Below, piece after piece: positions 33,242-35,189 of a stretch of 36,848 nt of DNA. Under the pieces are notes generated by a model. It did no database searches, was not told the origin of the DNA, and was given only the letters and a program-made list of their open reading frames with translations. Position 1 is the stretch's first letter; every line of letters begins with the position of its first letter. The stretch covers positions 1 to 36,848 of IMG/VR virus record IMGVR_UViG_3300031825_000400. One strand, 5' to 3'. A program made the translations under genes and the position numbers. This stretch comes from a virus.

Positions 33242-33508
33242 TTACAGGCCCCTCAATCTCGCGCCTGCTGCTTCGAGGAGTACTCGGGCGCGAGACCTTG
33301 AAACCGCTAGCTCGCTTGTTGCTTTTTCAACCGCGATCTCTGCCAGTGCGGCGCGAAACCTCGGTTCAAAATCCGCCGGCATCCGGATGTCGCCGCCGAG
33401 GATTTTGGAAAGCCGCGACTTATGCATCCCCAGTCTGGTAGCCACCGTCTTCTGCCGAATGCCGGTGGCTGCCAGGAGCGCGCGCAGGTCAGATAGAGTT
33501 TGGTCCAT
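33242..33508 (-). CDS. Cro-like XRE-family HTH protein
   Basis: This 88-aa protein, started at the ATG at 33508, has a clear XRE HTH ('ALLAATGIRQKTVATRLGMHKSRLSKIL', residues ~10-37) followed by a short helical C-terminus. It is the first gene of the early operon, directly under the operator array, and lacks any cleavage domain, which fits a Cro-type lytic regulator. The longer frame to 33529 would overlap the first operator. Confidence 0.75.
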   Translation of the reverse strand: MDQTLSDLRALLAATGIRQKTVATRLGMHKSRLSKILGGDIRMPADFEPRFRAALAEIAVEKATSELAVSRSRARVLLEAAGARLRGL

Positions 33509-33518
33509 CGATCTCTCT

Positions 33519-33539
33519 GGTGGTGGCAATACTGTTACC
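33519..33539. promoter_or_regulatory. Operator O1
   Basis: A 21-bp degenerate inverted repeat starting GGTGGTG and ending GTTACC, related to the two operators at 33557 and 33617. It lies at the predicted early transcript start, so binding would block leftward initiation. Confidence 0.6.
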
Positions 33540-33544
33540 AGGAG

Positions 33545-33573
33545 ATTATAGCGGTCGGTGGTGATAGTGTCAC
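33545..33573 (-). promoter_or_regulatory. Early leftward promoter
   Basis: GTGACA (33573-33568) and a perfect TATAAT (33550-33545) are separated by 17 bp. It drives the Cro-like gene and the early operon. O2 overlaps its -35 box and spacer, and O1 its start region. Confidence 0.85.
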
Positions 33574-33577
33574 CACC
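33557..33577. promoter_or_regulatory. Operator O2 (best palindrome)
   Basis: A 21-bp inverted repeat with perfect 8-bp arms, GGTGGTGA and TCACCACC, around a 5-bp centre. It overlaps the -35 box of the early promoter. Confidence 0.75.
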
Positions 33578-33616
33578 GATTTGCGATTTTTTGCATGCTG
33601 GCGTATCCAGAGGTGC

Positions 33617-33637
33617 GGTGGTGATGTTATCACTACC
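33617..33637. promoter_or_regulatory. Operator O3
   Basis: A 21-bp inverted repeat with arms GGTGGTGAT and ATCACTACC. It ends 2 bp before the ATG of the repressor gene, so binding would control the repressor itself. Confidence 0.75.
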
Positions 33638-33639
33638 AT

Positions 33640-34143
33640 ATGCGTCGAATAGCGAACGAGGAATTTGGGCGCCGGGTCCGCGACGTGCTAAGTAAGCACG
33701 GTAGCGAAGGCGCGCCGATGTCGAACCGCGGGGCTGATCGCAAGACCCAAGTCAACTACGTAACCATCGGGCGAATGGCCGAGGGCTACGTGCCTGAAAT
33801 GGAGTCTGTGGTCAAGTTCGCGCAGGGCTTCGGCCTTGATGTGAACGAATGGCTAGAGCTTGCTGGCTACGAACGGGTAGAGGATCCGGCGATGAAGCAA
33901 GCCCTTGATGCAGTCAGCGTCCTGATGCGGGGGCTCCGTGAACTCCAGGCTGAGTTTCCAGGGCAGGTCGTGCCCATCCCGCGCTTCCCCGGAGACGCGC
34001 GGTCACTCACCTTGGAGCAGGTTAGGTCAGTACTTGACGACATCCGGCGAAGGTTGGCTGCAAGCGAACCATGTCACTTCGAGGACCACGCCGTTACCGG
34101 AGCGCTGTTTATGCCCCCGGCCCGCGTTGAACAGGAGCGATAG
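33640..34143 (+). CDS. XRE-family phage repressor
   Basis: This 167-aa protein has an N-terminal XRE HTH ('TIGRMAEGYVPEMESVVKFAQGFGLDVNEWLELAGY', broken by turns, residues ~42-77) and a helical C-terminus ending near 'DDIRRRLAAS'. It lacks an S24/LexA-type self-cleaving domain, so induction would not be by RecA cleavage of itself. It diverges from the Cro-like gene across the operator array. No ribosome site is seen, so a leaderless mRNA like lambda cI from pRM is possible. The stop is 2 bp before the pseudo-ImmA gene. Confidence 0.75.
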   Translation: MRRIANEEFGRRVRDVLSKHGSEGAPMSNRGADRKTQVNYVTIGRMAEGYVPEMESVVKFAQGFGLDVNEWLELAGYERVEDPAMKQALDAVSVLMRGLRELQAEFPGQVVPIPRFPGDARSLTLEQVRSVLDDIRRRLAASEPCHFEDHAVTGALFMPPARVEQER

Positions 34144-34145
34144 CA

Positions 34146-35189
34146 TTGGAGCAGGGACTTCACTTCGACGGACCGGCTGACAATGTCGTGAACCGGTATC
34201 GGGCCAGGTACCAATCCGCAGATTGGCCAAAGGCGCCTTCGTCACTCGAAGTTATCGCTCTAGCGCGTGCGCTCGATCAGGCAGGCAAGATTAAATACGA
34301 AATAGCGACCGTGGCCTGCCCATATTGCCTTCCTGATGGTGATCATCGCTGGCTCGTGGTCTTACCGGATCTTGATTTCACTTTCGAGTGGCGGCTGAAT
34401 GCGCTCAAGTCGATTGGCCTTGCGATCATAAATAGCGTGGCAGACCCGAAGCCTTTATATTTGCCCGAGAGAACGGCATCCGCCGAGATATTAATCGAAG
34501 AATACTCCCAGGCAAGCCAGTTCGCAGAGGAATTTGCGCTCGCTTGGCTATTTCCAGTGGAACTTATGTTCTCTGGGCTGAGTGACGAGGGGATATGTGG
34601 GTTTGCAGAGTGCCCCGCAGAGTATGTGCAACGCAGATGGCGAATGCTTAAACGCGATGCGCTCGTGAAACATCCAGTGATTGCGTCCAACGTCATCAAT
34701 TCAGTTCGAGCGAAGCGCATACTCCTGCGACGACGTTCCAGTGGCGCAATACCCGTGGCGCCCAGACCATCGGTTCTTATGACGGCCTACTGGATCACTG
34801 TTAGTGGACTTGCTCTTGCCTCGTTTGGCCGGGTCATTACAATTTTCCTACTAATGTGCTCGGATGCATATAGATCAGTTTCAGTGATGCCAATTACGGA
34901 TCTGCGAGTGGCGGCATATTTATTGCTAATCTACGGCCTAACTGCAGGTGCGTACATTTTGCTCGCGTTGTTCCATTCAGATCCGAAACGCAGGCGTAGG
35001 GTGAAAGCGAAATCGGGATTTGAGCGGTTCTTTCAGAATTCAATGTCCAGCACGGCTGGACGGTTGACCGCGATGTTCGTCTTCATATCAGCATCCTATT
35101 CGTTGCCCTTTTTCGCTGCGGTGATAAAGCGCATAGGTGAAGTGCGTGCGTTGCCAGCGCAGGCCATCAGTTCCCCACTGAAGCGCTAA
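34146..35189 (+). CDS. Membrane-anchored ImmA/IrrE-like protein with degenerate active site
   Basis: This 347-aa protein starts from a TTG 2 bp after the repressor stop. Residues ~60-175 resemble the ImmA/IrrE peptidase fold: 'RLNALKSIGLAII' (83-95) aligns with the usual R-F-T-L-A-H-E-L-G-H pattern, but K88/S89/L92 replace H/E/H, and 'FALAWLFP' (130-137) matches the conserved FAxxLLxP. Three C-terminal membrane helices follow (about 210-238, 254-276, 308-327). The coding region is less GC-rich than its neighbours. It may bind or anchor the repressor rather than cut it (inference). Confidence 0.55.
   Translation: MEQGLHFDGPADNVVNRYRARYQSADWPKAPSSLEVIALARALDQAGKIKYEIATVACPYCLPDGDHRWLVVLPDLDFTFEWRLNALKSIGLAIINSVADPKPLYLPERTASAEILIEEYSQASQFAEEFALAWLFPVELMFSGLSDEGICGFAECPAEYVQRRWRMLKRDALVKHPVIASNVINSVRAKRILLRRRSSGAIPVAPRPSVLMTAYWITVSGLALASFGRVITIFLLMCSDAYRSVSVMPITDLRVAAYLLLIYGLTAGAYILLALFHSDPKRRRRVKAKSGFERFFQNSMSSTAGRLTAMFVFISASYSLPFFAAVIKRIGEVRALPAQAISSPLKR

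Follow-up and report, generated by a model that had tools for sequence, protein, structure and literature searches.

In a temperate phage genome, the gene directly behind the repressor encodes a 347-aa protein that joins a degenerate domain, very probably derived from an ImmA/IrrE metallopeptidase, to a membrane domain of three predicted helices. We tentatively propose that this catalytically dead, membrane-anchored relative of ImmA binds the phage repressor and holds it at the membrane, with a possible effect on induction. Besides RecA-driven self-cleavage, ImmA-type proteases provide a major alternative route by which mobile elements are induced. An intact natural fusion of a dead ImmA domain with a membrane anchor in a repressor operon would suggest that the ImmA fold can regulate through binding without cleavage, and that the membrane can be the site of a phage switch. 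The features on which this proposal draws are collected in Table 1.

Table 1. Features of the switch region and of the 347-aa gene (positions in the window; aa, residues of the 347-aa protein).
Feature	Position	Strand	Basis
Cro-like 95-aa HTH protein, encoded first in the lytic direction	33242..33529	-	Pfam HTH_31 5e-6; PHROG regulators
Operator-like palindrome 1, GGTGGCAATACTGTTACCAGG	33522..33542		Palindrome search; 0 expected in shuffles
Operator-like palindrome 2, GGTGGTGATAGTGTCACCACC	33557..33577		Palindrome search
Operator-like palindrome 3, GGTGGTGATGTTATCACTACC	33617..33637		Palindrome search
cI-type repressor, 167 aa, with an HTH, a short helical C-terminal region and no S24 peptidase domain	33640..34143	+	phrog_3949 1e-4
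Shine-Dalgarno-like AGGAG within the repressor gene end, 8 nt ahead of the TTG start	34133..34137	+	Read directly
347-aa gene, degenerate ImmA/IrrE-like domain and three transmembrane helices (predicted)	34146..35189	+	ORF list, hydropathy, profile alignment
ImmA/IrrE-like domain, aa 33-170	34242..34655	+	Glocal profile alignment; MAFFT
Site matching HExxH, occupied by KSIGL, at aa 88-92; catalytic residues replaced	34407..34421	+	54-sequence ImmA alignment, profile alignment
Site matching ExxAxxFAxxLLMP, occupied by SQFAEEFALAWLFP, at aa 124-137; no E as third metal ligand, structural residues retained	34515..34556	+	MAFFT ImmA alignment
Predicted transmembrane helix 1, aa 219-237	34800..34856	+	Kyte-Doolittle
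Predicted transmembrane helix 2, aa 258-276	34917..34973	+	Kyte-Doolittle
Predicted transmembrane helix 3, aa 309-327	35070..35126	+	Kyte-Doolittle
Large serine recombinase (integrase), 542 aa	35220..36848	+	Pfam Resolvase 2e-33, Recombinase, Zn_ribbon_recom

The Switch Region and the Gene behind the Repressor

The DNA analysed here (the window) comprises 36,848 bases and is a linear virus record from IMG/VR. Because its positions 1 and 36848 each fall exactly on an open-frame boundary, the record was probably trimmed to gene boundaries out of a provirus, which accounts for the absence of attachment sites and neighbouring host genes. The minus strand carries the structural genes, with matches to tail, portal and terminase proteins. 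The relatives of the large terminase (~36-57% identity) come mostly from Armatimonadota and Chloroflexota assemblies, so the host likely belongs to one of these two groups.

The right end of the window has the layout of a classical switch, in which a Cro-like gene runs leftward and the repressor rightward, followed by the 347-aa gene and then by the integrase. Three related 21-bp palindromes (33522-33637) sit between the divergent promoters of the Cro-like gene and the repressor; they resemble an OR-like operator set, and none would be expected by chance. The repressor has homologues in Armatimonadota and weak matches to PHROG repressor families, and a Pfam search gave no match to it. Neither Pfam nor PHROG revealed an S24 peptidase domain, in agreement with an earlier sequence-only reading of this DNA, according to which the repressor lacks a self-cleaving domain. 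That reading went on to state that another induction route is needed, which does not follow, because the protease of another element, or plain titration, may serve; the Listeria phage phi10403S, for instance, depends on another element's protease (PMC6872733).

The 347-aa gene, for which the sequence-only reading had given the correct coordinates, starts with TTG only 2 bp past the repressor stop codon (34141-34143). Since its AGGAG box falls within the 3' end of the repressor gene, translation of the two genes is probably coupled. The gene is real: an open frame of 352 codons has a p of ~2e-7 at the local base composition and did not arise in any of 2000 shuffles. Its GC3 is 0.55, vs. 0.62-0.91 in the other genes tested, which makes it an island of foreign composition within the lysogeny operon, and on account of this deviation it was probably recently imported.

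With the Kyte-Doolittle scale (19-residue window, peaks of at least 1.9), three hydrophobic helices were found within the C-terminal 140 residues, behind a soluble N-terminal domain, which bears out the fused membrane domain of the earlier reading. Arginine-rich segments precede the first helix and separate the second from the third, and their position flanking the helices suggests, by the positive-inside rule, that the N-terminal domain is cytosolic.

Resemblance to ImmA/IrrE and Loss of the Catalytic Residues

Profiles of ImmA were built from 30 Armatimonadota loci and 80 viral loci, and the combined profile comprises 114 ImmA/IrrE domains. The profile HMM used its own position-specific gap costs, and its four catalytic columns were masked so that they neither helped nor hurt. 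Aligned glocally to this profile, the core of the 347-aa protein scored 18.9, vs. maxima of 15.0 among 6000 shuffles and 12.5 among 3982 real ORF segments, and thus no shuffle and no real segment reached it. The limits of the core were set after the alignment had been seen; in the full-length test, which is independent of those limits, 1/6000 shuffles and 0/3982 real ORF segments scored at or above the 347-aa protein. A viral-only profile likewise gave no shuffle and no real segment at or above the query, and an Armatimonadota-only profile gave 8/6000 and 3/3982, respectively. Among the 166 ORFs of the window, the protein ranked first against the ImmA profile (18.9; runner-up, 2.4). The fit is collinear from the N-terminal helix through the final VSxxAxxxRL-like helix, and it reproduces over residues 33-170 the exact register in which the sequence-only reading had aligned the N-terminal half with ImmA/IrrE. 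Because the masked profile score exceeds those of both shuffles and real ORF segments, this region very probably derives from an ImmA/IrrE domain; a chance resemblance is very unlikely, judging from these profile tests, though general-purpose searches miss it.

In a 54-sequence ImmA alignment, the HExxH columns are occupied by K88, S89 and L92, exactly the replacements that the sequence-only reading had named, and the third metal ligand has been lost as well, so that none of the four catalytic or ligand residues remains (H88K, E89S, H92L, E124S). The protein therefore departs from PF06114 in having KSIGL for HExxH and S124 for the ligand E, and otherwise fits the family profile by glocal HMM. 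In the second motif, A127, F130, A131, L135 and P137 are kept. This retention of structural residues, alongside the loss of the catalytic ones, points to constraint on the fold.

A Proposed Role in Holding the Repressor

With a fold that appears to be kept, a chemistry that is lost, a gene coupled to that of the repressor and a membrane anchor, the simplest role for the protein would be to bind and hold the repressor. In a lysogen, this dead relative of ImmA/IrrE would be made together with the repressor from one operon, with its three C-terminal helices serving as the anchor and its ImmA-like domain lying in the cytosol. We infer that the pseudo-protease domain retains a repressor-binding surface and cannot cut, and that part of the repressor would be held at the inner membrane face. 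The protein may then set the supply of repressor to the three operators, or it may shield the repressor from the active ImmA of another element. We consider such tethering plausible.

The genes behind related repressors bear on this proposal. A profile of the window repressor and three weak relatives identified 28 Armatimonadota loci of distant repressor relatives, and an intact ImmA lies directly downstream in 12 of them, a count that is biased because two rows of the profile were taken from ImmA loci. One further locus of the 28 has a divergent ImmA-like gene downstream. At L213:1937-2548, a divergent ImmA-like protein with HELAE replacing HExxH overlaps the gene of a repressor that belongs to the family of the window repressor. 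No ImmA was found behind the three closest repressor relatives (L214, L221 and L218). A phage contig shares the module order, i.e., Cro and repressor, two genes, an intact ImmA and a serine integrase. This active counterpart (L123:2190-5913) encodes, between the repressor and ImmA, a protein that we take to be DUF4236-like and a small zinc-ribbon protein with two transmembrane helices. More generally, temperate phages typically carry a protease anti-repressor directly downstream of the repressor (PMC6872733).

Tethering is favoured by the profile fit, the replacement of the catalytic residues, the coupled start after 2 bp, the 12/28 loci, the gene order of L123, the operators and the predicted cytosolic location of the N-terminal domain. 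It is weakened by the lack of ImmA behind the closest repressor relatives, by a GC3 that points to recent import and not to co-evolution with the repressor, by the location of ImmA-membrane pairs in related elements mostly away from repressors, and by the failure of curated models to detect the domain, the marginal results of cruder alignments and the lack of relatives, as described below.

Alternative Explanations and ImmA Genes Paired with Membrane Proteins

A different role, possible though somewhat doubtful, is that of a lysogenic-conversion membrane protein, acting in superinfection exclusion or abortive infection and expressed from the repressor operon, with the ImmA-like domain as a sensor or scaffold that does not target the phage repressor. 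Given the low GC3 and the position between repressor and integrase, such a role is nearly as likely as tethering: deviant composition marks imported cargo, and Streptococcus thermophilus phages such as TP-J34 keep exclusion genes between the repressor/protease and the integrase (PMC3952083). It also agrees with the neighbourhoods of viral ImmA genes. Among the 72 with usable neighbourhoods, a gene for a membrane protein lies just downstream in 28 and just upstream in 14, and thus adjoins ImmA in 42/72 loci, above the background for other ORFs (downstream 20/133, ~15%; upstream 19/153, ~12%). The genes on either side of these pairs, where a family could be assigned, mostly encode phage structural proteins, integrases and S24 repressors, and the pairs mostly lie away from a recognised HTH repressor that could be their partner. 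Against an exclusion role, PHROG and PADLOC contain no known exclusion or defence family that matches the 347-aa protein, its C-terminal domain has no similarity to the two-helix partner families, and translational coupling to the repressor is equally a trait of anti-repressors.

In prophage-like contigs (L124-L202; e.g., L124:3947-4810, L133, L143, L154, L175 and L186), ImmA is often directly followed or preceded by the gene of a small, mostly two-helix membrane protein, and these proteins group into four families (14, 13, 9 and 8 members) with no clear Pfam matches. Four contigs (L141, L144, L146 and L193) carry triads of a two-helix protein, ImmA and a ~345-aa protein like Pfam Beta_protein; one member of the latter has a weak PF14350 match over its first 30 aa. 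The association of small membrane proteins with the ImmA fold is thus a recurrent one, and the 347-aa gene points to this broader pattern in prophages, in which an ImmA gene has a small membrane protein as its partner. Our literature search found no description of such pairs, which possibly constitute an undescribed accessory or defence module. The idea that the membrane part of the 347-aa protein is a fused two-helix partner found no support at the sequence level, as neither BLAST nor profiles detected similarity to any of the four partner families; calling the protein a fused ImmA-membrane pair is an analogy.

It is unlikely that the N-terminal domain has another origin altogether, i.e., that an orphan soluble domain sits on a membrane protein and resembles ImmA through the coincidence of two short helical motifs. 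The resemblance does fade with cruder alignments, for which p is about 0.03-0.2: results were marginal with fixed gap costs (query score equalled or exceeded by 13/200 shuffles and 22/300 real proteins), with global hhalign (7/240 and 6/240) and with MAFFT-add (24/120 and 16/120). Family searches were empty at any threshold, with no credible match in Pfam, NCBIfam, PHROG, PADLOC or PDB sequences and none to the curated PF06114 model (Peptidase_M78) at E up to 10. Relatives of the protein were not found in viral contigs, genome contigs, or phage and plasmid collections, nor among the terminase relatives (37 phage records, 19 genomes), nor in 291 Armatimonadota and 400 Chloroflexota genomes. The best Chloroflexota match (L120) was rejected as a chance hit antisense to an oxidoreductase-like gene. 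The lysogeny modules flanking the terminase relatives contain no matching switch, and none of about 50 Armatimonadota ImmA-domain proteins has a C-terminal membrane extension, so the ImmA-membrane fusion is locally uncommon. Against coincidence stand the outcome of the full profile test, the collinearity of the fit along the domain, the first rank among the ORFs of the window and the location of the gene in a slot where ImmA often sits.

Structure prediction, which the sequence-only reading had suggested as a check, contributes little on this point. From the single sequence, AF2 gave no confident fold (pLDDT 40), and with 53 ImmA rows the N-terminal domain reached a pLDDT of 67 and a pTM of 0.60 in a model driven by its alignment. 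When this model was compared with solved structures by VIA, CapP, PprI, IrrE and a Mycobacterium tuberculosis regulator had Z of 5.9-8.4 and the rest at most 3.5; in Foldseek, the best chain, the same M. tuberculosis regulator, had an E of 0.84. This regulator presumably carries an IrrE-like domain, and no non-ImmA family stood out in the comparison. The model is compatible with an ImmA fold and is no proof of it, since it follows the alignment.

Less probable still is a variant in which the dead ImmA domain binds the repressor and the three helices form a membrane sensor that modulates binding according to membrane state or phage entry; if true, induction or immunity would be coupled to an envelope signal instead of DNA damage. 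Least likely is a decaying remnant, i.e., an ImmA-membrane fusion that was imported, became inactive and now drifts without present function, as the loss of all four residues, the lack of relatives and the atypical composition might suggest, but the frame runs intact through 347 codons and has a ribosome site and a coupled start, and the second motif points to constraint on the fold.

Comparison with Known Systems

In the literature searched, we found no precedent for a phage pseudo-protease or for membrane-anchored anti-repressors, and the closest systems share parts of the arrangement proposed here. ImmR/ImmA of ICEBs1 and ImmRA of TnSmu1 each combine a repressor with an M78 metalloprotease (PMC10233336). 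As in the window, an HTH repressor is followed by an ImmA-like protein in one operon of a mobile element (PMC10233336), and the 347-aa gene lies directly downstream of its HTH repressor, across the 2-bp gap. However, ImmA of ICEBs1 and TnSmu1 is a soluble protein with HExxH that cleaves the repressor, whereas the window protein has lost the catalytic residues and is fused to a membrane domain; site-specific cleavage of the repressor by it is predicted to be absent.

The Listeria monocin and A118-type phages also have a divergent switch, in which a DUF955 protein immediately follows a cI-like repressor (PMC6872733). Their MpaR is an active protease for which no membrane domain is described, in contrast to the membrane-fused window protein without catalytic residues. 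The H54A mutant of MpaR loses cleavage (PMC6872733), and the window protein is, by the same token, predicted to be unable to cut. The nearest solved structures, both to the domain profile and to the alignment-driven model, are Deinococcus IrrE/PprI and CapP of CBASS; these are active metalloproteases with extra sensor domains and are not membrane proteins, whereas the window protein appears to be dead and membrane-anchored.

The S. thermophilus phage TP-J34 has the order int, ltp, metallo-proteinase, cI and cro (PMC3952083), and Sfi21-type modules similarly place a membrane or lipoprotein exclusion gene and a metallo-proteinase between the integrase and cI-cro (PMC3952083). Like Ltp, the 347-aa protein is encoded between repressor and integrase and, judging from its predicted helices, is membrane-bound. 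In the TP-J34/Sfi21-type module, however, exclusion protein and protease each have a gene of their own, whereas in the window the membrane and ImmA-like parts are joined in one polypeptide.
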